61,784 nucleotides of DNA from a virus, in the IMG/VR virus record IMGVR_UViG_3300029448_000029, positions 1-61,784 of that record; one strand, 5' to 3'. The position numbers and the translations under genes are program-made. Shown piece by piece: positions 12,435 to 61,290 of the stretch (position 1 is its first letter; each line of letters starts with the position of its first letter). Under the pieces are notes generated by a model, which was given only the letters and a program-made list of their open reading frames with translations, was not told the origin of the DNA and ran no database searches.

Positions 12435-12825
12435 CGTTATCTCCTGAAACAATTGTTTCTAAAATGCTAGTGTATTTGTCTTTGGACTCAAAAACCGTTT
12501 CTCTGAATGATTTTTGTAGTTCTTGTGGTAAATTATCGTGTGCTTCAGACAATAAAGAAGCAACGTCTTCAGTTACAACCAAACGATCACCATCTGGAAG
12601 ATCGACATTCACCTCATTAGAGTTCTGTAAACACTCGTTTATTACTGACACAAATGCAGTTTCCTCATTGACTTCCTCTGTTTGTTGAGTGAAAAGACCT
12701 TCGGCAACGGACTTTCTTGCTTCGTCCATTTTGGAGGAAACCATTTCACTAATGATCTGCTCCGTAACATTAGCGAAAGACTCTTGGTTTGATTCAAGTG
12801 CTGCTTGTAGTAAATCTTTTTTCAT
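12424..12825 (-). CDS. Putative prohead core protein (gp67 position)
   Basis: A 133-aa acidic helical protein (MKKDLLQAALESNQESFANV; later SLLSEAHDNLPQELQKSF). It occupies the T4 gene 67 slot between gp20 and the gp68-position gene. There is no motif beyond acidic, helical composition typical of internal core proteins. Its ATG overlaps the gp20 stop (ATGA), so translation is likely coupled to portal synthesis. The identification is by synteny only; no sequence-specific motif is visible. Confidence 0.55.
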   Translation of the reverse strand: MKKDLLQAALESNQESFANVTEQIISEMVSSKMDEARKSVAEGLFTQQTEEVNEETAFVSVINECLQNSNEVNVDLPDGDRLVVTEDVASLLSEAHDNLPQELQKSFRETVFESKDKYTSILETIVSGDNDGQ

Positions 12826-31219: not shown

Positions 31220-34200
31220 TCAATAACCAGAAGAGGAAGAACTAGAAGATGATCCTCCCATAGAACCACCGGACGAACGAGTAGACCTAGGGGATGGTGA
31301 GGATGGAGTTGATGGGGTTGACGTTCCTCGTCCGCTAGTTCCAGACTGAGTATTTATGTCATCTCCAAGTATGGGTCGTCCTGCCTCTATGTAAGATTTT
31401 AATAATCTCATAGACTCGTTGGGATCGACAGGTTCAAAAGGTCTGCTTGCTGAAGCAAATTCCTCTTCGGGACATCTTGATCCATCTCCACCATAGTCAC
31501 CAGCATAAAAGTTTACACAATCGTATCTGTTGGTGAGGAAACAATATCCAGAGGACAATGTGCATGATCCAAAGATAGCACCTGTATTTGTGGAACGTCC
31601 TTGATACTGCGGAACAGCCTCGGGATCGGTAAAGTATCGGTGAGTAAAGCCAGGATCAAAAATGTTTGATTCACCAGTGACACCCGGAGAAAATTCAGAG
31701 ATGAAGTGAGTTCTGTTTATGGTCGGATCTGCAAAAGGTTCATCTGTATTAAACACATATGGGATATACCACAATCTTGCATGTTTATCAATAAAGGAGC
31801 CTCTCTTTGATGGATCCAAATTATCAAATCCTGCTTTTGGATATCTACCATCCGCACGAACGAGTCGAATCGGTCGAACCTTTGCGGTATCGTCAGACTT
31901 GCTAAGTTTCTTCATTGAGAAACCATCTGTAACATCCTCGGAATTTAAATTGTTGGGGAATGTCATTGCCCATGCTTTTGTCATGTGACCAACAATTCTA
32001 TCACCAACATTTTCCTGAATTCTACCATCGTTTCGTGGCACTTTGGTTCCAACATATGGAGCGAGACCGGTGAAACCTTTGTTATCACCTGTTCCAATTT
32101 GTGTTGCATCTGCGGTCGAACCAATGAACAAAAGACCCTCTGGATTTTCTAAGTGATTTGCTTGCCCCTCAATGAGTTTTCTTTGCCACGAGTAATAAGC
32201 CTCATGCAACGCATTCCAGCGATCAAGTTCCTCTTGCGTCCAGTCGTCATCTGGTCCAACAGGTCCAGCCCCACTTTCAATGGAAAATCTTGACATGTCT
32301 AATCCAGCGAACGCTTCTTGTAAACTACTTTGCAATTCTTCAAACTCAGTTAATCTACCGCTGAAATCGAACGCACCCATTGATGTCCAATATTCACCAC
32401 GAATTGCATCACCACCGGCTGCAACAATTTTTTCGTTCAATCCTTCCAGAGCGACTTTTCTAGCGATATATGCCATCTCATCTGGACTTGGCAAATACCA
32501 AGGAGACATGAATGGTGGATTTGGATAAATCCAGTTATTTTCAGGATCACAGAAATTGTCTGGGCAAGGTTGAGAAACTCCATCCTCATCAACACTATGT
32601 AACCTGTCATCATACTTACTTCGTATAACGTGAACCGATGAAAGTTTTGCCGTCGGCTCGGCAGTCTCTAGACCTGGTGTTTGAATTTTACCAAACCAAT
32701 ATTCACCAACGTATGACGGGCTGTTGTAATACTCTTCAACCGCTTCTGCGGAGAATCTTGAAAAAGCGTGTGGATAAACATTAAGAAGGTAGTCGGCATA
32801 ACCACCGATGACTGGATTAAACGGGAAAGATGCGTATGCGAAACCATCTGATCTACCAACACCGGGACCGCACCCAATAACTGTCCCTCCACTCGTTACT
32901 GAAACGGGAGTGTTTACGCAACCACATGTAAATGATTCACCAAGTTCTGAACAAAATACTGGATTGTTTCCATCCGGTGGAAGATAATCATATGTTCCGT
33001 TACACAAATCAGTTGAACTATCTGGACGACAATTATAGTAGCCGTGATTCAATGCATGTGCCATTCGGACGGTGTTATGGAGTCCCCAGTTTCTATGATA
33101 TACTCCGTTCATATCGGGTCCAAATTCACCTCGACTATTCGTCGGTCCAACCCCACGATTAAAATCAGGAGGCACTTTGGAGAATAATTTACTCAATCCA
33201 TTAACATTGAATTGAACACCGGTCGCCCTCGCAGTATTATAAGTTGTTGCGGAATTAATAAACATAGATTTACTAATATTTTGACCGGGACCACTGTCGA
33301 ATTGTCCGCCCTCACCCTCAGCAAGAATGCCGGGTGGAACTGGGTTTGTATGAGTTAAATCCACTCGATCTTGTGTTTGGTATTCGCCGGGTGGTGATGA
33401 AGAAACAGAAATATTTGTTCTCGATGCTCTCTCTGCTCTAGCGGGCCAACCAGATTTAAATTGATTTGTTTCATCCAGTGTTCTTCGATAAAAACCCTCT
33501 TTCGTTCTGAAGATGGGTCTAAAACTTCCTCCAACTTCTCCATTGTGAAGCGAGCCGGGTGAATTTGATCTCTGTAAATCAATGTCCATATATGTTTGAT
33601 CAGACTGTCTATCTGTTCCAATATTTCCGGGTGTATTGATATTTGTAATCGGACCATAATTTGATCCGGTCAATCCCCACTTAAATTGCTCTGTTCCATC
33701 TTCAAGTTTAGCGTCGTCAAGAGAGACAATAATGAACCAAGCGTCCTCTCTAACCTCACCATCATTTGGATTAGAAAGACCTTCCCAATATGATTTTGAT
33801 TCTCTGTCATCATATCCGTAACCGTGATAATCGTATGATGATCGGTAGAAGTTTGATGCAACACGATTATTTGTCACAAGACTTTTTGGCCAATAATATC
33901 TTACTATTTCACTACCCGACATTAAACCAGTAACATACTCATTATCATACACGTCAAGTCCAGAGGTGCTCCAATTACCAAGTAAGGATCTACCATTATT
34001 CGCTTGCCCATAGCCGGGGATGTGTTGCTCACTGTTTTCCGCAAAGGCAGGTAAAGCGGGTTCATTTTTTGGATCGCTCGGACTGATCTGATCTGAAATA
34101 TACGCATTTTCACCATATGTTGGCTGTATTTGCTCATTCGTAAAGTCGCTTTCTTTTACACCAAATCCGGCATTACCCAAAAGAACAGATCCATATGGAT

Positions 34201-36052
34201 TGTAAAGTCCAGAGACGACACCACCACCATACTCACCACCAGTCACGAATTTTGGTGCAACGTCTGGGTGTCTAAAGAAATCATAGAGAGTTTCAGAGGA
34301 GAGTGCTGAAGGACATTGTGTTGTTTGACACCGTGAACCGAGACCCGCATACTTGGAGCCAGCAGCGATACAATCGTCTCCAGTCACTCCATCGACACAG
34401 TTCCCGAATGTGCAACAGGAACCCGTCCCACCGGAACAGAGACCGTCGAAACAGGGAATACCTCTACCTCGGAAGAATCCACCGATCTCCTGACAAAGAT
34501 ACTGACTAACTTCAGTGCAGTTTCCAAGTCCATCACAGCAAGCACCAGTATCAAAGATTGAAAGCGTGCAATCAACTTGACCACATCCCTGACTGGCATC
34601 TGGATTACTCTCAGGCAAATAACCAATGAATCCCGCAAACGACGAATACAAATCGGGAGTAAATCGACCGAGAGCAAGACACTCTTCAGGACAAAGTATG
34701 TTACACGTTAACGGGTTTTGTGGATCCAACCCATAAATGCCTTGCCAGTTTCCGGGCCATCCTTGTTCGGGGATTTCTGGTATCAACGTGTCAAGACCAA
34801 GCGGATCAAGAACTTCATTGTATTGACAGCATGGACCAATCGCATCTGCGTTGATGGGGCCGCTAAGGGTTCCACATACATTTAATCTATCGTCACCAAA
34901 GAAACCAAAGGCATTAGAAATATAATCTGGAACAAAGAAGCCGGGACAGTTTGGTTGACTTTGGAATGTGGGTGAGCCATCACCGAGACAACAAACACCA
35001 ACGTTACCAAAACCACCACCAATTAAAGTATCGTCTTCGTTACAGTAATGTGTTTCATCATAAGTTACAAGACTACCTGAATCATTCCAGTAAACCAAGT
35101 TACCATACCAAGAATTACCGTTTGAAATAAACGTGTAAATGTCTCGATTACCGCTAAAGCAAGGTTTTCTAATGAACGGGAATTTAACCTCAGAATTGGT
35201 TGATGTAAATCTATCAACACTCGCAGGTGTTCCCGTTGCACCTTCAACAACCAAGAAGAATGCAGCACTTTTATCAGAGGGTGGTTCTGTAATATTGACG
35301 ATGATTGGAACGGTGTCAATATCGTTACCTTCTATTTGTGCATCTTGTGCCTGAACAAGGAAAGTTTTTCCTCTTGTCCAATCCACATCAACTCTCAATC
35401 CGTTTCTACCCGCAATTATATCGGCACTTAATCCATCACCAGTTCCAAGTAAGATTGCAGGCTCAAGAACAGAGCGAACAGCCAGACCCTCAATTTCGTG
35501 TCTATCTAAAAATTCAGCGGCAGTTGCACCACTAATACCAACGATATCACCGGACGCATCAGCCATAATGAGTTGTTGCGGTGTTGCGGAAACATTTAAA
35601 TATCCTGTGCCAGAGATATCGTAATTAATATTAATGTTTCCGTTACTTTCGGTGAGAGTTAGATACTCACTCTCGACACCAATGTTTCTTATTTCCATTG
35701 ATCCAGCATCGGTGTCTACAGATTTTGCAAAAGTAAAACCACTGCCAAAATTATTGAATCGCAGATTTGTCATTCGTGTTGGGCCGGTGTTACCAAAAAT
35801 TTTATCACCGGAAACACCACCAGTAATTGCAGTTATTTTATGTTGTGTTTCGATACCGTTGAACTGCGTGACAAAAGTTATTCCTTCACCCGTTTGATCG
35901 AATCGGAAGAAGTTACCGCCAGTGTGTCCTGTTGGGCCTGTATTTGCTGGTCCGGTGGGACCAGTGGGACCAGTTATACCAATAGGACCAGTCGGTCCAG
36001 TCGGCCCCGTGCCCGTTCTAACAAATTTAGAAAACCCAACATATATCGGCAT
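31220..36052 (-). CDS. Giant collagen-like, Cys-rich fibre protein with DUF1566-like domain (1610 aa)
   Basis: Largest of the fibre paralogues. Gly-X-Y repeats at residues 14-46 (GTGPTGPTGPIGITGPTGPT). CC modules at about 352-580, e.g. GACCDGLGNCTEVSQYLCQE and GSCCTFGNCVDGVTGDDC. A long DUF1566-like region starts at GGEYGGGVVSGLYNPYG (about 604), contains SPWYLPSPDEMAYIARK (about 1187) and GEYWTSMG, and ends RPIRLVRADGRYP (about 1397). A late CTLSSGYCFLTNRYDC module and a Ser-rich tail SSSSSSSSGY follow, like the 1281-aa protein. TAATG overlap with the upstream gene. Likely an adhesin-type fibre. Confidence 0.78.
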   Translation of the reverse strand: MPIYVGFSKFVRTGTGPTGPTGPIGITGPTGPTGPANTGPTGHTGGNFFRFDQTGEGITFVTQFNGIETQHKITAITGGVSGDKIFGNTGPTRMTNLRFNNFGSGFTFAKSVDTDAGSMEIRNIGVESEYLTLTESNGNININYDISGTGYLNVSATPQQLIMADASGDIVGISGATAAEFLDRHEIEGLAVRSVLEPAILLGTGDGLSADIIAGRNGLRVDVDWTRGKTFLVQAQDAQIEGNDIDTVPIIVNITEPPSDKSAAFFLVVEGATGTPASVDRFTSTNSEVKFPFIRKPCFSGNRDIYTFISNGNSWYGNLVYWNDSGSLVTYDETHYCNEDDTLIGGGFGNVGVCCLGDGSPTFQSQPNCPGFFVPDYISNAFGFFGDDRLNVCGTLSGPINADAIGPCCQYNEVLDPLGLDTLIPEIPEQGWPGNWQGIYGLDPQNPLTCNILCPEECLALGRFTPDLYSSFAGFIGYLPESNPDASQGCGQVDCTLSIFDTGACCDGLGNCTEVSQYLCQEIGGFFRGRGIPCFDGLCSGGTGSCCTFGNCVDGVTGDDCIAAGSKYAGLGSRCQTTQCPSALSSETLYDFFRHPDVAPKFVTGGEYGGGVVSGLYNPYGSVLLGNAGFGVKESDFTNEQIQPTYGENAYISDQISPSDPKNEPALPAFAENSEQHIPGYGQANNGRSLLGNWSTSGLDVYDNEYVTGLMSGSEIVRYYWPKSLVTNNRVASNFYRSSYDYHGYGYDDRESKSYWEGLSNPNDGEVREDAWFIIVSLDDAKLEDGTEQFKWGLTGSNYGPITNINTPGNIGTDRQSDQTYMDIDLQRSNSPGSLHNGEVGGSFRPIFRTKEGFYRRTLDETNQFKSGWPARAERASRTNISVSSSPPGEYQTQDRVDLTHTNPVPPGILAEGEGGQFDSGPGQNISKSMFINSATTYNTARATGVQFNVNGLSKLFSKVPPDFNRGVGPTNSRGEFGPDMNGVYHRNWGLHNTVRMAHALNHGYYNCRPDSSTDLCNGTYDYLPPDGNNPVFCSELGESFTCGCVNTPVSVTSGGTVIGCGPGVGRSDGFAYASFPFNPVIGGYADYLLNVYPHAFSRFSAEAVEEYYNSPSYVGEYWFGKIQTPGLETAEPTAKLSSVHVIRSKYDDRLHSVDEDGVSQPCPDNFCDPENNWIYPNPPFMSPWYLPSPDEMAYIARKVALEGLNEKIVAAGGDAIRGEYWTSMGAFDFSGRLTEFEELQSSLQEAFAGLDMSRFSIESGAGPVGPDDDWTQEELDRWNALHEAYYSWQRKLIEGQANHLENPEGLLFIGSTADATQIGTGDNKGFTGLAPYVGTKVPRNDGRIQENVGDRIVGHMTKAWAMTFPNNLNSEDVTDGFSMKKLSKSDDTAKVRPIRLVRADGRYPKAGFDNLDPSKRGSFIDKHARLWYIPYVFNTDEPFADPTINRTHFISEFSPGVTGESNIFDPGFTHRYFTDPEAVPQYQGRSTNTGAIFGSCTLSSGYCFLTNRYDCVNFYAGDYGGDGSRCPEEEFASASRPFEPVDPNESMRLLKSYIEAGRPILGDDINTQSGTSGRGTSTPSTPSSPSPRSTRSSGGSMGGSSSSSSSSGY
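34310..34998 (-). repeat. CC-type cysteine modules (1610-aa fibre)
   Basis: It encodes about residues 352-580: GVCCLGDGSPTF, GPCCQYNEVLDP, GACCDGLGNCTE and GSCCTFGNCVDG units, the last two with the full C(x3)G(x4-8)G(x3)C ending. The first two are expanded by insertions. Confidence 0.78.
35915..36013 (-). repeat. Collagen-like Gly-X-Y tract (1610-aa fibre)
   Basis: Eleven Gly-X-Y triplets at residues 14-46, dominated by GPT, interrupted at PANTGPTGHTGG. Confidence 0.87.
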
Positions 36053-39516: not shown

Positions 39517-41742
39517 TCAAGTTATTTTAGTGATTAGTAAATTGTTCATGTATCTAATCTCTTTATTTAGGTGATCTATGTAAAACACTGGAGCAAAGTT
39601 TTCCGTATCTTCTAAATTTACAGAGTCAACAAAATCTGCCCCAGAAAAGTTTATTTGAATTCTCGTTGGACCCAACGATTTGGATCTTTTTGGTTTGAAT
39701 GATGGATCTTGATTTGAATCTATTTCTCGTTGCAACATATTTAGTCCGACAACCGTTTTTCCAGAATTTAATTTTGGTATGGATAATGCAAAAGCACTTT
39801 CATTCGTAAGTGCATAACTTAAACGAACAGGGTATCTCAACCCATCTCCACCTCTCGTTTTATCGACAGAGTAATAGTCAGATTCTAAAAAAGTCACATT
39901 AATGTTGTTTGTATTCTCACTTACCGACAACGGATTTTGTTTCGTTATGGTTCTCTCTGTATAATTACCGACACCACCACCGAGAGCAATTCTATCTGGG
40001 AATAGAGGAGTCGCTCCGTTCCAGTGTCCTCCACCAACTCTCATGTTTTCGGACTGAGAGCCATTGTAATACGGCCAAGAGAATCCAACTTCACCTAAGA
40101 ATGAGAAACCCTCTCTGATATTTTGTTGGAACTCGTTGAGGTCTGATGAAGATATCGTTGAGCCATTATAGAAGCCAATGTAACGATAGTTTTTATTATC
40201 ACGTTGTTGATCTATAGAATCAATACCCGTTTTAAGATTTTCCTCACTTTGAACGTCGGTTTGTATTCCATAATCACCATGAAACTGTTGTCCGATAGCA
40301 TCAAGACCGTTTGGCATATAATACTCCACATCGTTTAAAACGTGTATGTGGAAACCGATAAGCCCTCTTTGTCTTTCCTCTACAGTTCTTGCCTCCTCTG
40401 GTGTCGGACTTGCATCTCTTGCCGCTTGCTTTGTTCGATACAAAGGATAGTAACCTAAAACATCAAAAGGTCCTGTCTCAGTAACTCCCAATGATTGCTG
40501 TTGCGATTCGTCCTCAACGATAACCGTGGGGGGAGAAAAACGATACGGGTGATCTTGAGGCAACTGAGAAGCAATTTGATATTTGTGTGCGAAATATCCC
40601 TCTAATTTGTTTCTAATTTCATCGTTTAAAACAAGCCTTGGACCGAGTTGATCAGTGTCACCCGCACAAACACTACTCCAATAATTTTCCTCCATAGCCT
40701 TTACATAAACAATTTCAGTAACAGCAGAAGATTGCGGTATAAATTGCCGAGTAATTTCCTCTGGATCTGGATCGTCCTCTGGACGTCCACTTTTTATTTT
40801 ATACGCACCTAAAGTTGTTTCAAATGGCGCACTCAATCCCGTTCTAACGTATGCAACGATATCCTCAAATGGTCGAACATCTAATTGTCTACCATCAATA
40901 AATGTTCCTATATGATTTGCTGGGACACTAATGCCGGTCGTTTCCGTTGATATTCTTAACATACCAGCACTAATTCTTGCTTTTGTTCCAAAATCAAGTT
41001 CGGGTATCGTGGAGTTTAATGTTGTTATAACTTTTTCATTAAAAATATTTCTAGCCCCAGCGGAAAAATACACACCAACAGAATTGTTGTCATAATTCAC
41101 ACCAAAATGAAGATGACCACCATCAAATTCAACTGTTTGACCACTTTCCCCCGAAGCAAGAGCCCCGTGTCCTAATACAACTCCAAAATTTTCCTCTTGA
41201 TTAATACTATCAACATAAGTCGATGGATTAACCGTTACAGTCATAACCAATACGTCTCTTAATCCACCAAATATTTGTGTGCCATCTGGACAATTATAAT
41301 AATTGCCTTCCTCGTATTGATTGTTACCGAAAATAACATTGGCAGCGCCAGGGGCACGAACTTGCTTTGTCATTGCAGTGCCATTTCCATTTTCATCAAA
41401 AACTAAAATTTTTGTGTTTGGCCTATTACCCACAGTCGCAGTTTTTACCTCGGGTGCGTTTGGATTATCAAGATTGCTCGACATTGGATAAATAGACTTT
41501 TTCACTTGAGCAAAATTTGCCCCAGGCACATAATTTACTCCATTTTCATCTTTGGAAAAATTAACTGTATTTTTAAGTGGAAAGGCAGGATCAGTGGTGG
41601 TTTCATATTCAGTTATGCTGTCTTGATTAACCCAATAAACTAAACTTTCATCCAAATCATTGGGTGTCCATAGTCGTGTAACTGGTGGTGCAGAAGGAGT
41701 CTCCGTTGCATCCTTTCCAAATTGTCTATCTTCGCATGACAT
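39517..41742 (-). CDS. Virion protein with LamG/concanavalin-like domain
   Basis: A 741-aa structural protein. The first half starts with LWTPNDLDESLVYWVNQDSI and ends its lectin-like domain at RNKLEGYFAHKYQIASQLPQ followed by DHPY, the classic end of LamG/ConA-like modules in phage and environmental proteins. The C-terminal 230 residues (YRYIGFYNGSTISSSDLNEF onward, ending FYIDHLNKEIRYMNNL) are a diverged copy of the neighbouring 315-aa protein. Start overlaps the upstream stop (TAATG). Likely a tail or baseplate-associated glycan-binding protein; not a recognised T4 gene. Confidence 0.72.
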   Translation of the reverse strand: MSCEDRQFGKDATETPSAPPVTRLWTPNDLDESLVYWVNQDSITEYETTTDPAFPLKNTVNFSKDENGVNYVPGANFAQVKKSIYPMSSNLDNPNAPEVKTATVGNRPNTKILVFDENGNGTAMTKQVRAPGAANVIFGNNQYEEGNYYNCPDGTQIFGGLRDVLVMTVTVNPSTYVDSINQEENFGVVLGHGALASGESGQTVEFDGGHLHFGVNYDNNSVGVYFSAGARNIFNEKVITTLNSTIPELDFGTKARISAGMLRISTETTGISVPANHIGTFIDGRQLDVRPFEDIVAYVRTGLSAPFETTLGAYKIKSGRPEDDPDPEEITRQFIPQSSAVTEIVYVKAMEENYWSSVCAGDTDQLGPRLVLNDEIRNKLEGYFAHKYQIASQLPQDHPYRFSPPTVIVEDESQQQSLGVTETGPFDVLGYYPLYRTKQAARDASPTPEEARTVEERQRGLIGFHIHVLNDVEYYMPNGLDAIGQQFHGDYGIQTDVQSEENLKTGIDSIDQQRDNKNYRYIGFYNGSTISSSDLNEFQQNIREGFSFLGEVGFSWPYYNGSQSENMRVGGGHWNGATPLFPDRIALGGGVGNYTERTITKQNPLSVSENTNNINVTFLESDYYSVDKTRGGDGLRYPVRLSYALTNESAFALSIPKLNSGKTVVGLNMLQREIDSNQDPSFKPKRSKSLGPTRIQINFSGADFVDSVNLEDTENFAPVFYIDHLNKEIRYMNNLLITKIT

Positions 41743-45772: not shown

Positions 45773-47658
45773 TACAGAGGTTTAACCTCCACATTTTGTT
45801 GAACAATATTTAAAACCATTTGTTGTTTTGCAGAGATATTATTGTTTTCTGGTTTGATGGTTAATTTTATTTCTTCATTACCAGTAACTCTAGGATTAAT
45901 TTTGATAAGTCCAGTTTTATGATTTATTTCACCAACACCGCCCTGCTCGACAACCTCAATAATGGTTCCGTTATCTCTACCAAGATAGAGTGGGGAAAAT
46001 CCATAAAGATTCGGTTCAAGCCCAGAGTCAACTATGAAAACATCATCCCTATCAAATCGAGGACTATAAAAACTACTTGATTTTAACCCTTGACCGATGC
46101 CTCCTCGTGTTATTTTATTTCTAAAAGAAATTTGATCAATAACGGCTGAGTTTACATCAAAATCAGTTTCCATTGTAACATCAGTGACAATATTTTCAGG
46201 AAGAATCGCGTTTGGCTCAGTTCCAGTAATAATTTCACTAAAACGTGATGTGATAAAATTATTATTAAATTTGGAACCACCATAATTTTGTTCAACGTTT
46301 TCTCTGATATCAAAAGATAATTGATCTTTATTTTTTTGTGTGTTTAATGAATTGAAAAATACAGTGTATGATAAATTCAGTTGGAATACTTGTGGTGGAA
46401 TATATTCTGGCATGATTGACAACGGTGATTTTTCTCTTAACAAGTCGAGAAGATCATTCGCTTGTTGAGGTCCAGTTGTAAGTAAAGAAACAAATACTCT
46501 ACCATAGTAAGGTGGATCCAATTCCTCACCACCAAACACACTAACGGTTCCCTCTGGACTAGATCCATCGGGAACAAAGTCTTTAATCAAACCAAGATAA
46601 TCATTTCTCGTAACAGCACGGTCCTGTGCGGCAAACCATTTTGGAGCAAAGAATCTGATTAACTCAGGATCAGGGCCGTCGGATCCAGCAAAACTCTCGG
46701 AAACTAATCGAACGCTTCCGTTTCCATCGGTGTAAGTAAATTTTCTAATCTCGTTTGCAACTTTTCCCGATGGAATAAGATAGGATATTCTAATCTTATC
46801 TGTCGGAAGTATTCTTCTACCAACATTGTCCGTTTCAAGATTTGGATTACCAACATCGACCAACTCTCCGTTTGCTCTCGCAGAGAAGATAATCTTCACA
46901 CCTTTATTTAATCTCTCAACGAAATAAATTGTGCTATCCTCGGAGATAGTAGAGTTTACGAATTCAGACTTCGAATATGTTGAAAAAGTAGAACCACCGT
47001 CTGTGCTAACTTCGAGTTCAATGGAGTCAATATCAATTCTGTCATCATTAAGAGTAAACGTTTGATTAGTGGTATTAACTAAATTCGTAATGTCTCGACG
47101 TAAGATTAAATCTTTTGCCTCGTATAGGATGACGCTCTCTGCCTTATTTGTCGTCGTATCTAATTCATAAGATTGTAAGGTATAAAAATTGTAGTTTGAT
47201 CCATCTGCATCTGTTCCAGTAAACTTGGAGTATTGTGGTATTCTTGCCGTCAAGTTTTCGACATCAATTGTTGCTCTAGCGGCAACTGATGCTCGAACAG
47301 TAAATCCAAGAGGTTTAGTTATAGATATCAAGGATTCCATTCGTTGTGCGGTGTCAAGATACAGTTCATTCGCAATCATGTTTGAATAGAAACCATAATA
47401 CATGGTGTTGTATGTGAGAGCGTCAATCAAAACATTTAAAGCGGATGAGGTAAAATCTAAATCATTAAGAGGACTATCTGTTCTCTGAAGATAGTTAATT
47501 ATACTTTGTTTGATTCCCTCATATGTTAAGTTACCGAGTCGAATAGAGGAATCCGACAAAATGGTTTCTTCGGCTGTTGCCGTTTCAGTGGAGTCACCAT
47601 TTCCATTTCTATAAACGTTTGAGCCTCCAGAACTTGTTTGTGTAGTATGGTATGACAT
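45772..47658 (-). CDS. 6: gp6 baseplate wedge protein
   Basis: A 628-aa wedge backbone protein (T4 gp6 is 660 aa; related to gpJ of P2). The N-terminal block TYEGIKQSIINYLQRTDSPL, then DFTSSALNVLIDALTYNTMY and YGFYSNMIANELYLDTA, is the signature of T4-like gp6, followed by a central RDITN...R beta region and WFAAQDRAVTRNDYLGLIKD. It overlaps gp25 by one base. In the virion six gp6 dimers tie the wedges around the hub. Confidence 0.95.
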   Translation of the reverse strand: MSYHTTQTSSGGSNVYRNGNGDSTETATAEETILSDSSIRLGNLTYEGIKQSIINYLQRTDSPLNDLDFTSSALNVLIDALTYNTMYYGFYSNMIANELYLDTAQRMESLISITKPLGFTVRASVAARATIDVENLTARIPQYSKFTGTDADGSNYNFYTLQSYELDTTTNKAESVILYEAKDLILRRDITNLVNTTNQTFTLNDDRIDIDSIELEVSTDGGSTFSTYSKSEFVNSTISEDSTIYFVERLNKGVKIIFSARANGELVDVGNPNLETDNVGRRILPTDKIRISYLIPSGKVANEIRKFTYTDGNGSVRLVSESFAGSDGPDPELIRFFAPKWFAAQDRAVTRNDYLGLIKDFVPDGSSPEGTVSVFGGEELDPPYYGRVFVSLLTTGPQQANDLLDLLREKSPLSIMPEYIPPQVFQLNLSYTVFFNSLNTQKNKDQLSFDIRENVEQNYGGSKFNNNFITSRFSEIITGTEPNAILPENIVTDVTMETDFDVNSAVIDQISFRNKITRGGIGQGLKSSSFYSPRFDRDDVFIVDSGLEPNLYGFSPLYLGRDNGTIIEVVEQGGVGEINHKTGLIKINPRVTGNEEIKLTIKPENNNISAKQQMVLNIVQQNVEVKPL

Positions 47659-48077
47659 TAGATAGCCCTTATAAGTTCAATTTGAGCAGACCTTGTCTGT
47701 GCCCCATCTGGCTCACCGACTAATCTGTAGTTTAAATTTAATATTACGTTATTTGAATCCATTCTAGACTCATCAATTTCAATTGATTGGAAAATTACTC
47801 TCGGTTCATATAAACTAAGAGCATACTCTATTCTTGTCGAAAGAGAAGCGACTGCCTCTGGAGTTAAGTTTTCAAAGAGAAACTCCGTGATCCCTCCACC
47901 AAATCCCGGCAGAAATGGCTTTTCGCCGGGTGTGGTTAACACTAAATTTTTTATCGCTTGCACGATTGAGTTTTGATCTCTTTTTATACCGATAGCGAAC
48001 GGGGAATCGTCTCCGACTCTTGTGAACGCAAGATCAAAATCAGTGAACCTATTTCTAGTTGGGATTTTTTCAGCCAT
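47658..48077 (-). CDS. 25: gp25 baseplate wedge protein
   Basis: A 139-aa gp25/gpW-family protein (T4 gp25 is 132 aa), which nucleates sheath polymerisation. Typical features: FTDFDLAF, NSIVQAIKNLVLTTPGEKPF, then LPGFGGGITEFLFENLTP and a C-terminal NVILNLNYRLVGE strand pair. GGAGG ribosome site; one-base overlap with gp6. The gp6-gp25 adjacency is standard. Confidence 0.96.
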   Translation of the reverse strand: MAEKIPTRNRFTDFDLAFTRVGDDSPFAIGIKRDQNSIVQAIKNLVLTTPGEKPFLPGFGGGITEFLFENLTPEAVASLSTRIEYALSLYEPRVIFQSIEIDESRMDSNNVILNLNYRLVGEPDGAQTRSAQIELIRAI

Positions 48078-55473: not shown

Positions 55474-55905
55474 ATGGCCTATAAAACTGTCTACAAACCC
55501 ATAAATGAATCAAAATATGTAGGTGATCCAACCAACATCATTTGTCGTTCCCTATGGGAAAGAAAGGTGTGTAAGTATTTAGACACAAATGAAAACATTT
55601 CACGGTGGGGAAGTGAGGAAATCGCTATTAAATACTTTTCACCAGTGGACAATCGTGTTCATCGCTACTATCCTGACTTCATAGTTGAGGCAATCACTCC
55701 AAATGGGGGTAAAAAAACAAAAATCATTGAAGTCAAACCATATAAGCAAACGATACCACCAGAAAAAGGTAAAAAGAGAAAGAAAACATACCTCAATGAA
55801 GTCACTACATATATGGTGAACGAGGCTAAATGGAAAGCGGCACAAAAATTTTGTGAAAAACGAAACTGGGAGTTTGTTATTCTCACTGAAAAGGAATTGT
55901 TCTAA
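55474..55905 (+). CDS. 4: gp4 head completion protein (TnsA-like nuclease fold)
   Basis: A 143-aa head completion protein (T4 gp4 is 150 aa), needed to finish DNA-filled heads. It has the TnsA-type endonuclease layout: CRSLWERKVCKYLDTNENIS (24-43), YYPDF with D68 and IIEVKP with E86-V87-K88, i.e. an E...D...ExK site, and the following KKTYLNEVTTYMVNEAKW helix. Only TAGGGC lies before the ATG; a CCTAAATA late-like element is 4 nt upstream. It overlaps gp54 by one base. Confidence 0.9.
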   Translation: MAYKTVYKPINESKYVGDPTNIICRSLWERKVCKYLDTNENISRWGSEEIAIKYFSPVDNRVHRYYPDFIVEAITPNGGKKTKIIEVKPYKQTIPPEKGKKRKKTYLNEVTTYMVNEAKWKAAQKFCEKRNWEFVILTEKELF

Positions 55906-56465
55906 TGGCAAAAGCAATTATACCATCTGGGATAGATGAATTTAGAGCAAGCATTCTCGGTGGGAACGGCCTTCAACGAGCAAACCGTTTTGAAGTTTTC
56001 ATTCAGGAAGAAAATTTAGGTATGTTACAATGGCCCATTCAAACTGTGAGTTTGCCTGGCAGAAGTTTAGATGGCATATCAGATGAATTGTCTGCTCAGG
56101 GTGCAAACCCCAGAAACATACCAGTAAAACGTGGATATGGTGGTGAACCATCCATTCTTTTGGGTATGTTTCTCGATCAAAACTGGGATGTAAGAGAGTT
56201 TTTTGAAAACTGGATGGATCTTTTTAACCCGATTGATGAAAGTGGATTTTTATCATATGAGGGATCATATACTAATTTAACAAACAATTGTGATGTTCAA
56301 ATTTTATTTTTGGATTTAGAAGACAACATAAAATGGGGAATGAAGTTAATCGAACCATATCCTGTAACAATAATTCAGGAGGCATACTCCGCTGAAATGA
56401 TGAACCAACTTGCTATGTTGAACATTTCGATTGGATTTAAAGAATACACGACGCAACAATTATAA
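55905..56465 (+). CDS. 54: gp54-like baseplate tail-tube initiator (gp19 fold)
   Basis: A 186-aa tube-fold protein: NRFEVFIQEENLGMLQWPIQ, TVSLPGRSLDGISDELSAQG, the strand LLGMFLDQNWDVREFFENWM and a closing MLNISIGFKEYTTQQL. It is the same architecture as gp19 at 14406-14945. In T4 the gp19-fold proteins beside gp48 are gp54 (320 aa), the initiator that starts tube polymerisation. The placement across from gp48 and before gp26 supports that. It overlaps gp4 (TAATG). It could instead be a second tube protein. Confidence 0.7.
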   Translation: MAKAIIPSGIDEFRASILGGNGLQRANRFEVFIQEENLGMLQWPIQTVSLPGRSLDGISDELSAQGANPRNIPVKRGYGGEPSILLGMFLDQNWDVREFFENWMDLFNPIDESGFLSYEGSYTNLTNNCDVQILFLDLEDNIKWGMKLIEPYPVTIIQEAYSAEMMNQLAMLNISIGFKEYTTQQL

Positions 56466-56477
56466 AATGGAGATATT

Positions 56478-57173
56478 ATGAGTATTGTAGATCATTTAAA
56501 ATCGGCTTTGCCAAAATACAAAACAAAAATACCGTCGTCTGGTAAAGAGACTTTCTTTCGACCCTTTCTCGTTCGAGAAGAGAAAATTTTATTACTTGCA
56601 CAAGAGGATGGTGATGAATCAACAATCGTGAATGCAATCGCAACAATTGTTGAAAATTGTGTCGAAGACATTGACAATGCGAAAAAAATTCCGATGTATG
56701 ATTTGGAATATCTTTTTTGTCAAATTCGAGCAAAGTCTGTATCGGAAACCGCTGAACCAACATTTGTCTGTCCAGATACAGAGGAAACAGTAAAGATCGG
56801 TATTAAGTTAACGGATCTTAAAATTGAAACAGGGGAAAGAGAAAGTGACGTTAAACTAAACGAAACAGTCAAGATTAGACTCAAAGATCCTGTTGTTACC
56901 GACTACATTAACATGGACAAAGAAAACGCAACGGACAGTCTTATTTCCAAGTGTTTCGACACAATTACAGTTGGAGACGAGGTTTTTTCCGGAAGAGATT
57001 TAACCGATGTTGAAAAACAAGAAATAATTCAAAACCTGACACACAAACAATACGAGGAAGTATATTCGTTCATCGCAAATCAACCTAAACTCTATCATGT
57101 CGCAAAATATAGAACAAAGGATGGTGTTGAACGAGAGTTGAGACTTGAGGGAATAGGAGATTTTTTCGGCTAA
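56478..57173 (+). CDS. 26: gp26-like baseplate hub assembly/tail chaperone protein
   Basis: A 231-aa member of the T4 baseplate protein family (T4_baseplate, gp26/gp51 type). FFRPFLVREEKILLLAQEDG (26-45) is the family signature, followed by ESTIVNAIATIVENCV, the ...PMYDLEYLFCQIRAKSV block and CPDTEETVKI. A TGGAGATATT ribosome site precedes ATG 56478. Its last codons GAT TTT TTC GGC TAA contain an in-phase slippery heptamer followed by a strong hairpin, so part of the ribosomes probably shift to -1 and make a 298-aa product (see next entries). The tape measure gene follows. Confidence 0.88.
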   Translation: MSIVDHLKSALPKYKTKIPSSGKETFFRPFLVREEKILLLAQEDGDESTIVNAIATIVENCVEDIDNAKKIPMYDLEYLFCQIRAKSVSETAEPTFVCPDTEETVKIGIKLTDLKIETGERESDVKLNETVKIRLKDPVVTDYINMDKENATDSLISKCFDTITVGDEVFSGRDLTDVEKQEIIQNLTHKQYEEVYSFIANQPKLYHVAKYRTKDGVERELRLEGIGDFFG

Positions 57174-57373
57174 GTCTTTGTCATGTCTCTTTGCAGACAA
57201 TGATAAAGACAAATTCTGATTTATTTTTACACTTTAAAATGACGTATAGTGAATTAGAATCAATGATTCCGTGGGAAAGAGACATTTATATCGAATTGAT
57301 TAAGCAACATATAGAGGAAGAAAACAAAAAAATAAGAGAGAGAAACAATGCAAGAAGATCAGGCATTCCATAA
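56478..57373 (+). CDS. Predicted -1 frameshift fusion product of gp26 (gp51-like C-terminal extension)
   Basis: Predicted fusion of residues 1-230 of the gp26-like protein with 68 codons in the -1 frame read from 57167 to the stop at 57371-57373 (joined protein about 298 aa). The extension contains YSELESMIPWERDIYIELIK, a short helical element of the kind found in small gp51-type 'hub assembly catalyst' ORFs and in lambda T-type chaperone extensions. The extension ORF has no convincing ribosome site before its ATGs at 57200 and 57239, and its reading frame is open back to the slip site. The tape measure gene starts inside its last codons (57348). Confidence 0.75.
57161..57210 (+). promoter_or_regulatory. 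-1 programmed ribosomal frameshift signal
   Basis: Heptamer T TTT TTC at 57161-57167 in the zero-frame phase X XXY YYZ, then GGCTAA (6-nt spacer holding the zero-frame stop), then a hairpin. The lower stem pairs 57174-57183 with 57201-57210 (10 bp, one G-U). A57200 is bulged, the upper stem pairs 57184-57188 with 57195-57199, and the loop is CTTTGC. This is the standard arrangement of a -1 frameshift site. Confidence 0.85.
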
Positions 57374-58712
57374 AATAATCTCCGGTATGGGCAAGAAGGG
57401 TAAACGAGCGAAGAAACGCAACGTTAAACCTTTGTTGCTGTCTAGCGTTTTGTTTAACCCACCGAAATTAAATAGTTTACCTGAACAGCAAAAGCAAATT
57501 GATATACCAGATGAAAGTGCTAAATCCGTTTCAGATGAGTTGAAAGGATTTAAGAAGATCATTGAAAAAATGGTCAAGAATATCATATCAAATACAAACA
57601 ATACAACGACTCAAAACAAAACCTCAGTTGAAAATGTAAGTTCCATTCAAAATGTCTTTAACGCAAACAGCACTACAAACAAACGCTCTGGAAAAAATAT
57701 CTCTAATGTGAGAAATATAACATCCTCCAATAATGATGTTTCCTCTGTGAAAAACTTTTCATCAATGAGCAACGGTGTTTCAGCAACAAAAAATGTGTCG
57801 CTTTCAAATAAAAATATCTTAGTCACCACACGCAAGTCTGGTTTGACAAAAATAGAAAACGAAAATAACAAAAGTGAAAATAATGTAAAACTTCTTCAAA
57901 ACGGAGACTTAACTAACGTATTGAACGAGAGCGTTGTCAGAAATATTTCTAACACCAACACAATAACAAACAGAAAGTATGCTCGTCCGATTCAGGCAAA
58001 AGCAAAAGGTGGCTGGATATCTGGTCCACTGAAGGGATATCCTGTTTCACTTGACGGTGAAAAAATTGATTTCATAGGACACGGAACAGAGTTTGTCGCA
58101 AGAAAACCCTCTGGTTCGTTTGTGATTCCAGTGGACACACCTGAAACAAGAAAAGATCCCAGTCTTATGGAAAGAAGGGTTAAGGAAGCGAAGCGTGCTG
58201 GTTTTGATTCATTGGGGTTAAATAAAAAAATTAGTTTACCAAAAATGAAACCCACCAAAATATCTGCAAAAGAACTTCCTCGCTTACAAAATTTACAACA
58301 AAAAGCAGTGGGTGGATTTTTGTCGGGTATCGCAGATAGTGTTGGTGGAATGGTTGAATCCAGTCCGATTGGTATGTTGGCAGGACAGGCAAGCGGATTA
58401 CTCGAAAAAGTTACTGGTGTTAATCCAATCGAAAATATTAAAAGCGTAATCAACCCAACTGAAACGAGAGATTCTAGAATAGAACAACAGATGATAGAAA
58501 ATAATATGGTAAAAACTGAAACAGAAAAGATATTAGATGAGAGAAGAGAATCAAATAACAATCAACCTATCCCGTTACCAATACCAATGAACACCGGAGG
58601 TGGTGGACAAAAATCGAGCAGCCCAATGATTGCCGCTGGTGGAGAGAGTAATTTCTCTAGGGTGGCAAAGGAACAAACAATGTTCCCTGCTTGGAGAAGA
58701 AATATGGGATAA
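57348..58712 (+). CDS. 29: Tail tape-measure-like protein (gp29 position)
   Basis: A 454-aa protein in the tape-measure position, after gp26/gp51. The N-terminal third is basic, residues about 85-205 are low-complexity Asn/Ser/Val repeats (NISNVRNITSS, NVSSIQNVFNANS style), and the C-terminal part has GGWISGPLKGYPVSLDGEKI, FIGHGTEFVARKPSG, then VIPVDTPETRKDPSLMERRV and a hydrophobic helix region GGFLSGIADSVGGMVES. The GxxSGPxxGYPVSLDGG...FIGHGTE block is shared with other marine phage tape measures as I recall them. T4 gp29 is 590 aa, so a shorter tail is expected. AGAGAGA ribosome site; the start overlaps the frameshift ORF. Confidence 0.7.
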   Translation: MQEDQAFHKIISGMGKKGKRAKKRNVKPLLLSSVLFNPPKLNSLPEQQKQIDIPDESAKSVSDELKGFKKIIEKMVKNIISNTNNTTTQNKTSVENVSSIQNVFNANSTTNKRSGKNISNVRNITSSNNDVSSVKNFSSMSNGVSATKNVSLSNKNILVTTRKSGLTKIENENNKSENNVKLLQNGDLTNVLNESVVRNISNTNTITNRKYARPIQAKAKGGWISGPLKGYPVSLDGEKIDFIGHGTEFVARKPSGSFVIPVDTPETRKDPSLMERRVKEAKRAGFDSLGLNKKISLPKMKPTKISAKELPRLQNLQQKAVGGFLSGIADSVGGMVESSPIGMLAGQASGLLEKVTGVNPIENIKSVINPTETRDSRIEQQMIENNMVKTETEKILDERRESNNNQPIPLPIPMNTGGGGQKSSSPMIAAGGESNFSRVAKEQTMFPAWRRNMG

Positions 58713-59991: not shown

Positions 59992-61290
59992 ATGCCAGAC
60001 ACCGGATCAAACATAACCATCGACATTAGTGGAAACACCGCTGAGATGGCAACAGATTTTGCCTCTAGTGGTGTAAATGTCACCGGGGCACACGTTCCAA
60101 TCCAAAAACTCGCTTTTGGAGACTCTACTGTATCAAAAAGAGTAAGCAGTAGCAACCCCTTACCCATAACAATTCAAAGTTATCAATCTAACGTTGGTAT
60201 CTCTGGTGATGTTGGTATCTCAGGAAACGCTATAGTATTCAACGCTTTTGAGACAGATCCCACGGGTATCACAAACAACTGGTTGAAAGTTGCTGGATCT
60301 GTTACGGGTGGTGACATTGGAATCACTGGTACAATTCAAGGTATCGCTGGTGGTTATCCAATTGGTGTGACAGGGACCGTCGCTATCGACGAACAAACAG
60401 GTATTCCTGTCCACGGTATCAGCGGTCAGGACGGCTTCACAGGAACCGCTGCTCCGCTCCTCGCAACAGGTGGCAGACGGCTCACATCCGCAACAGACAC
60501 CGTTACCGTGACTGGTACGGTTAATGCAACGGGTGGTAGAAATATCCTCGCTGCGACTGACAGTATCAAAGTCTTTGGTTCTGACGCTTCTCAATATATT
60601 CCTGCCATTTTATATCGAAGTTCATCCGGAGCAACCGCTGGATTCTCTGGTGACGCTCTGAAAGTTTCTATTGTTGACGCAAGCATCGCAATCACAGCAA
60701 ACGTTCAAACAACTCATGGTGTCACAAATGACAGTGTGGATAATGCTCTGAGAATTCAGGGACTCACTGGTGCAGAACCCGTCTTGATTAAGGGTGAAAA
60801 CGGTGGTGCCGTTCCGATTACGACATCTAGTGCCATTACCGTAACGCAAAGTGGAACCGTAACAATTGACGATACAAACATCACGACATCATTGGAATCA
60901 TCGTCTAAACCAATCGTTTCCAATCTTACCTCGATCAAGAGTAACACCAATTCCATTCCGGGGATTAGAACTGATCTTGCCTCTGGCAACGTTCAAGTTA
61001 AAGTTCTCGAATCAGTGCAACCATCCTCCTTGTCAGCAGGAAGTAGATCGGTAAACACAACAGCATCTCAACTTGTCACGAATGTTGAAGTGAAGAGTGG
61101 AGTTTCGATTAAATCTAGTGTTGATAACACAGACACGATCTTAGTCGGAAGTTACACGTTAACACAAGGTGATAGAAACGGATATCCGTTAGAGCCGGGT
61201 GAGTCGTGTTTCTTAAACGTCAACAACGTTGGATTGGTTTATTGTAAGTCGGTTCGGGGATCACAAACGGTTCACTACTTAGGATCGTAA
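59992..61290 (+). CDS. Virion-like beta-rich structural protein
   Basis: A 432-aa protein of unknown family. It is Gly/Thr/Val/Ser-rich with repeated GISGDVGISG, GTIQGIAGG, GVTGTVAID and TVTVTGTVNATG strands, typical of beta-prism or beta-helix virion proteins. The C-terminal 75 residues (VSIKSSVDNTDTILVGSYTL, then GDRNGYPLEPGESCFLNVNN and VGLVYCKS) form a conserved capsid/tail-associated beta domain common in environmental phages. No membrane segment. GGAG ribosome site. It is the first gene of a rightward unit divergent from gp33 and is followed one base later by the last gene. Confidence 0.7.
   Translation: MPDTGSNITIDISGNTAEMATDFASSGVNVTGAHVPIQKLAFGDSTVSKRVSSSNPLPITIQSYQSNVGISGDVGISGNAIVFNAFETDPTGITNNWLKVAGSVTGGDIGITGTIQGIAGGYPIGVTGTVAIDEQTGIPVHGISGQDGFTGTAAPLLATGGRRLTSATDTVTVTGTVNATGGRNILAATDSIKVFGSDASQYIPAILYRSSSGATAGFSGDALKVSIVDASIAITANVQTTHGVTNDSVDNALRIQGLTGAEPVLIKGENGGAVPITTSSAITVTQSGTVTIDDTNITTSLESSSKPIVSNLTSIKSNTNSIPGIRTDLASGNVQVKVLESVQPSSLSAGSRSVNTTASQLVTNVEVKSGVSIKSSVDNTDTILVGSYTLTQGDRNGYPLEPGESCFLNVNNVGLVYCKSVRGSQTVHYLGS

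Follow-up and report, generated by a model that had tools for sequence, protein, structure and literature searches.

Gene 26 of this marine T4-like phage fragment has close to its end a run of six Ts, where a second reading frame with gp51-like content opens, and this raises the question of whether the two frames encode separate proteins or are joined by ribosomes that slip from one to the other. To address it, we analysed positions 1 to 61,784 of the IMG/VR virus record IMGVR_UViG_3300029448_000029, a stretch of 61,784 nucleotides that we call the window. A -1 frameshift site has a heptamer of the form X_XXY_YYZ in the phase of the zero frame, with an RNA structure at a spacing of 5-9 nt. The 3' end of gene 26 reads GAT TTT TTC GGC TAA in the gene frame (57159-57173), which places T_TTT_TTC in this phase, and the hairpin begins at +7 after the heptamer. 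An earlier note on this DNA had claimed that the phase allows simultaneous slippage, that the zero-frame stop lies within a 6-nt spacer and that the -1 frame stays open over 68 codons. Each of these statements proved correct: the zero-frame codons read TTT TTC, the TAA is inside the spacer, and the -1 frame is open from 57167 to 57370 and stops at 57371-57373, thereby overlapping the next open reading frame (ORF; ATG at 57348) by 26 nt. The predicted fusion has 298 amino acids, comprising gp26 residues 1-230 and the 68 residues of the extension, and its peptide across the slip site is GIGDFFRLSLCHVSLQ. Among the 84 in-phase heptamers (with A or T as Y) in the 44 window ORFs, that of gene 26 is the only one that is followed by a stable fold and lies no more than 60 nt from the gene end. 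On the minus strand, folds of about -19 kcal/mol come after in-phase AAATTTA and AAAAAAT in 47658-48077; these heptamers are mid-gene and have at most 24 open -1 codons.

Table 1. Features around the 3' end of gene 26, in window coordinates
Feature	Position	Strand	Details
Tail-tube-like protein, directly upstream of gene 26	55905-56465	+	phrog_45 tail tube, E 1e-10
Gene 26 homologue, predicted short (G-like) tail-assembly chaperone, 231 aa	56478-57173	+	PF12322, phrog_150
Slippery heptamer T_TTT_TTC	57161-57167	+	-1 frameshift phase; zero-frame codons TTT TTC; X_XXY_YYZ
-1 frame extension, T-like/gp51-like	57167-57373	+	68 codons and stop
Spacer, 6 nt, with zero-frame stop TAA	57168-57173	+	sequence
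Candidate stimulatory hairpin	57174-57210	+	15 pairs (11+4), bulged A57199, 6-nt loop, one G-U
454-aa ORF, presumed tape measure (by position)	57348-58712	+	overlaps the end of the -1 ORF

The window gp26 matched PF12322 at E 6e-52 and phrog_150 at E 1e-54. Its ATG is preceded by the ribosome site GGAG, and the gene starting at 55905 is preceded by AAGGA. An AlphaFold2 model of gp26 built with 24 sequences had a pLDDT of 91, and its top BFVD matches belonged largely to the gp26/gp51 family; a search of the PDB with this model gave no significant match, with the HK97 tail assembly chaperone gp13 (2ob9) sixth in rank and weak (E 0.64, probability 0.44, TM 0.37 by target). The ORF after the chaperone pair is presumed to be the tape measure from its position and from weak annotation in relatives, as in Cr30, in which a gene at a comparable position, one further small ORF later, is annotated as tail tape measure. 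Its matches are long proteins whose label is ‘endolysin’ or unknown, phrog_1200 among them, from the long ‘endolysin’ PHROGs of cyanophages. At 454 residues it is short relative to the matching profiles, which are about 870 residues and longer. The proposal that the -1 ORF ends inside the start of the tape measure gene therefore stands as to the 26-nt overlap, and the identity of the overlapped gene is presumed. Within the window, which is a genome fragment, one gp26-like gene lay above the cut-off and no T4-type gp51 was found; a second, weak PF12322 match (E 7e-4, under the cut-off) lies at 12592-12822 on the minus strand. The ORFs at 31220-36052 (minus strand, 1610 aa), 39517-41742 (minus strand, 741 aa) and 59992-61290 (plus strand, 432 aa) had no family match in the searches made.

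The -1 frame does have the gp51-like content that had been ascribed to it: its protein matched phrog_634, ‘baseplate hub assembly catalyst’, at E 9e-17. It also matched, weakly (E 0.019), the end of the phrog_150 profile (241-280), of which gp26 matches the earlier part. In T4, gp51 (249 aa) matched PF12322 over residues 1-201 (E 3.9e-52) and spans phrog_150 from end to end, extension included, and its final 100 residues hit phrog_634, as the window's extension does. The relatives' consensus E-[IL]-E-N-M-[IM]-P-W-E-R corresponds, aligned by eye, to ELESMIPWERDIYIEL in the window and to SISKMIPAERGFVLKL in T4 gp51. A tblastn search with the window gp26 matched the long gene adjoining gp26 in Aeromonas phage 44RR. 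Since T4 gp51 matches both PF12322 and phrog_150, gp26 and gp51 of T4 are a short and a long paralogue. The heptamer is absent from T4 gene 26 (GAG TTC TTT GAG) and from that of KP185, likewise with TTC TTT, and both genomes also carry a full-length gp51. T4 gp51 thus carries in frame the part that lies in the -1 frame in this phage, in agreement with the earlier remark that T4 is not a classic example of the arrangement; T4 has two separate genes.

We next considered how constant the slip site is among homologues. The first set, of 95 sequences, joined the window with 14 phage records and with 80 IMG/VR loci that a search by gp26 alignment had retrieved. The second comprised 80 further loci (L098-L177) fetched through the -1 protein. 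When the window gp26 was the sole query, viral contigs gave no match. An in-phase T_TTT_TT[CTAG] was found at the gp26 end in 94 of the 95 members of the first set, including 80/80 IMG/VR loci and 13/13 phage records outside Tevenvirinae and Ackermannviridae; the exception was the Ackermannviridae phage GR28A. All 80 loci of the second set have the heptamer, and in all 80 the zero-frame stop starts 3 nt after it. Because the second set was found via the extension, it is not independent proof that heptamer and extension are associated, whereas the first set is. Elsewhere in gp26, the same in-phase run of six Ts was found a single time among 13,120 codons. The in-phase heptamer is thus near-invariant among the examined homologues outside Tevenvirinae and Ackermannviridae. 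All 94 heptamer-bearing sequences have T as the last base of the codon preceding TTT, whichever of Ser, Asp, Ala, Asn and Thr it encodes, against a T-ending background of 29-81% depending on the residue (P ~10^-5.7 over 32 lineages sharing <70% identity), and all 94 use TTT for the first Phe, compared with 70% elsewhere. Codon choice is therefore biased toward the slippery heptamer relative to background usage.

The extension is conserved along with the slip site. It is open in the -1 frame throughout the first set, contig ends excepted, and in the seven close relatives L098-L104, the gp26 proteins of which are 47-65% identical to that of the window, the -1 protein is 66-71% identical, starting from residue 1. 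In three of these (L099, L102 and L104), the first ATG comes only at codon 24, yet RLSLCHDSLETIFKVNFDLF is conserved. Third positions of the -1 frame are the most variable in codons 0-23 of the window clade (0.50 versus 0.26 and 0.14), which fits coding in that frame. One alternative is that the -1 ORF is a separate small gene 51 that initiates by itself or is coupled to gp26 termination. It is annotated in this way in S-PM2, Cr30, phiN3, P-RSM4 and others, and in most database records, and 41 of 64 lineages have an early ATG or GTG, which makes a degree of separate initiation possible. However, an early start with a ribosome site was found in just 4/64 lineages, compared with 26/64 at gp26's own start, and 17/64 have no ATG, GTG or TTG in the first nine codons (0-8) although the -1 protein is still conserved from the slip site. 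Annotated starts, such as that of S-CAM22, omit conserved residues, and a separate gene leaves both the invariant heptamer and the in-frame T4 gp51 fusion without explanation. In the window, the possible -1 starts ahead of the conserved PWE motif are TTG 57191, ATG 57200, ATG 57239 and an ATG directly preceding it (codon 32); as had been claimed, none has a good ribosome site, and ATG 57200 is inside the 3' arm of the hairpin. Among the 64 lineages, a short ORF with a ribosome site at an early ATG or GTG, which the earlier note had set against frameshifting for homologues lacking the heptamer or hairpin, is thus seen in those four. We consider a separate gene 51 unlikely. Four public phage records treat the gp51 extension in two ways: S-CAM22 and LG08 start it at an internal ATG, and S-PRM1 and ACG-2014i leave it unannotated.

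The candidate hairpin has the anatomy that had been described for it, down to the bulged A and the single G-U pair. The folding check that had been proposed gave -17.7 kcal/mol for the hairpin region alone, with a z of -4.84 against dinucleotide shuffles (0/200 as stable), and an equally good fold was found in 1.5% of random 60-nt stretches. We then compared the 53 nt after the heptamer with synonymous recodings of the same -1 protein in 64 lineages. The mean z was -1.96, versus -0.27 and -0.59 in two control stretches farther downstream; it was below -2 in 30/64 lineages, with the window at -4.2 (0/200), and in 19/64 (z above -1) an excess of nested structure was not clear. One family-wide covarying stem, sought among nested stems across the 64 lineages, was not found. 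The commonest register (i+j = 42; 6-36 to 15-27) fits 16/64 lineages and has a few double changes (11-31 GC/CG, 12-30 GU/UG and 14-28 UA/GC/AU). The window clade uses register 50, in which the window, L098, L100, L101 and L103 pair 7-43 to 16-34 or longer and have the window's lower stem in common, and the S-PM2 stem is in a third register. L099, L102 and L104, three of the seven close relatives, have no comparable hairpin and retain the heptamer and the extension. These data indicate that downstream structure is favoured beyond coding need and that the window's particular stem is lineage-specific. Because registers vary and the hairpin is missing from those three relatives, the slip site seems to be the fixed part and the stimulator exchangeable. 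The expectation of a conserved heptamer plus stem with compensatory changes was therefore borne out for the heptamer and, in a few double changes, for pairing, but not for the stem as such. In the -1 frame, the 3' arm of the hairpin (57197-57211) encodes TMIKTN at a place where ESYYKxN is found in the wider family; the protein sequence looks as though the RNA stem had dictated it.

Slippage of RNA polymerase on the six Ts, adding one U, would also yield a -1 product, and the site is a homopolymeric run. Such slippage is improbable to a high degree, as most homologues have just six Ts, bound to one codon phase, and it gives the RNA structure 6 nt downstream no role. Least credible of all, the heptamer might be a mere conserved Phe-Phe C terminus, with the -1 ORF and hairpin unrelated: T4 gp26 also ends in an aromatic pair (EFF), but T4 and KP185 encode it without a heptamer, the codon bias before and within the site in every lineage contradicts this reading, and TTTTTTA, with Leu as the second residue, is kept in three first-set and five second-set loci, with TTTTTTG in AF3.

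Programmed -1 frameshifting in gene 26 of the lambda G/GT kind, producing short and long tail-assembly chaperones, is by contrast very probable. In this model, a minority of the ribosomes on gene 26 would shift one base back at T_TTT_TTC, assisted by the hairpin 6 nt downstream, and would pass the TAA to add 68 residues, giving a product of about 298 aa in addition to the 231-aa protein, which would still be the main one. As gpG and gpGT do in lambda, this pair of a short (G-like) and a long (GT-like) chaperone would load the tape measure and the tail tube, and T4 would obtain an equivalent pair from its paralogous genes, 26 for the short form and 51 for the long. Slippage, its rate, its stimulation by the hairpin and the chaperone function are what we infer here; the heptamer, codon bias, conservation of the -1 frame, excess structure and T4 gp51 paralogy all support the frameshift and chaperone-pair reading of the earlier note.

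Ackermannviridae present a more varied picture. All seven loci from this family (GR28A, Kuja, Det7, VAP7, nACB2, D510 and Bue1) retain the -1 extension with its PW motif, and the heptamer was found only in nACB2, as T_TTT_TTT with a strong hairpin. The other six may use single-codon slips on TTT or TTC, or a separate start. Det7 and Bue1 share FEIDL ahead of any ATG, a hint that a non-canonical slip may operate. It is possible, although we hold this only tentatively, that a -1 frameshift pair is ancestral to T4-like phages including Ackermannviridae, that T4 replaced it by duplication, and that elsewhere the slip site stayed fixed while the stem was re-registered and reshaped the extension; TMIKTNS in the window clade, against ESYYKxNF in relatives, would be an example of such reshaping.

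The G/GT frameshift of lambda and its relatives was reportedly described by Levin in 1993 and by Xu, Hendrix and Duda in 2004. The present locus resembles it in that the short chaperone gene carries a heptamer close to its end, a -1 extension follows, the locus lies in the tail block and a presumed tape measure comes next; it differs in that the heptamer is T_TTT_TTC and that a strong hairpin begins 6 nt after it, and its fold match to the lambda-type HK97 chaperone is below significance. A 2016 review (PMC5009743) describes the G-T frameshift as conserved in long-tailed phages ‘except T4’. The chaperone frameshift of Vandenendeviridae and Andersonviridae, which uses a GTTTTT motif (PMC12846349), is alike in its -1 shift, poly-T and position at the end of the short gene, but the motif and phage family differ. 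For cyanophages, Sullivan 2010 (PMC3037559) reported a gp51 whose length is about 20% of that elsewhere among T4-like phages and whose C terminus is similar; that text regards it as a separate gene that has been shortened and does not use the word frameshift. The short cyanophage gp51, or ‘baseplate hub assembly catalyst’, corresponds to the -1 extension and is homologous to the T4 gp51 C terminus. If our reading is true, the small ‘gene 51’ of marine T4-like phages is the end part, in the -1 frame, of a chaperone made by frameshifting, and it is this part that database records often present as a separate gene with a doubtful start or overlook altogether. The identification of tail assembly chaperones in T4-like phages is credited to Vladimirov, Gautam and Davidson 2022 (Virology 566:9-15) in PMC10885494 and PMC12846349. 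Of these, PMC12846349 also attributes to them poly-T slippery sites within the short gene, and PMC10885494 the finding that some T4-like phages have the short and the long gene as separate copies. As credited to that paper, both the frameshift and the separate-gene routes are already described; the kind is therefore known, and the window is a well-formed member of it, sharing the family (PF12322, phrog_150/634), the C-terminal extension and the poly-T slip site with the T4-like gp26/gp51 chaperones. T4 has two separate gene copies, whereas this fragment has one gp26 copy and a -1 extension, and if our reading holds the two offer a natural contrast for one short/long pair, made by frameshifting here and by gene duplication in T4.
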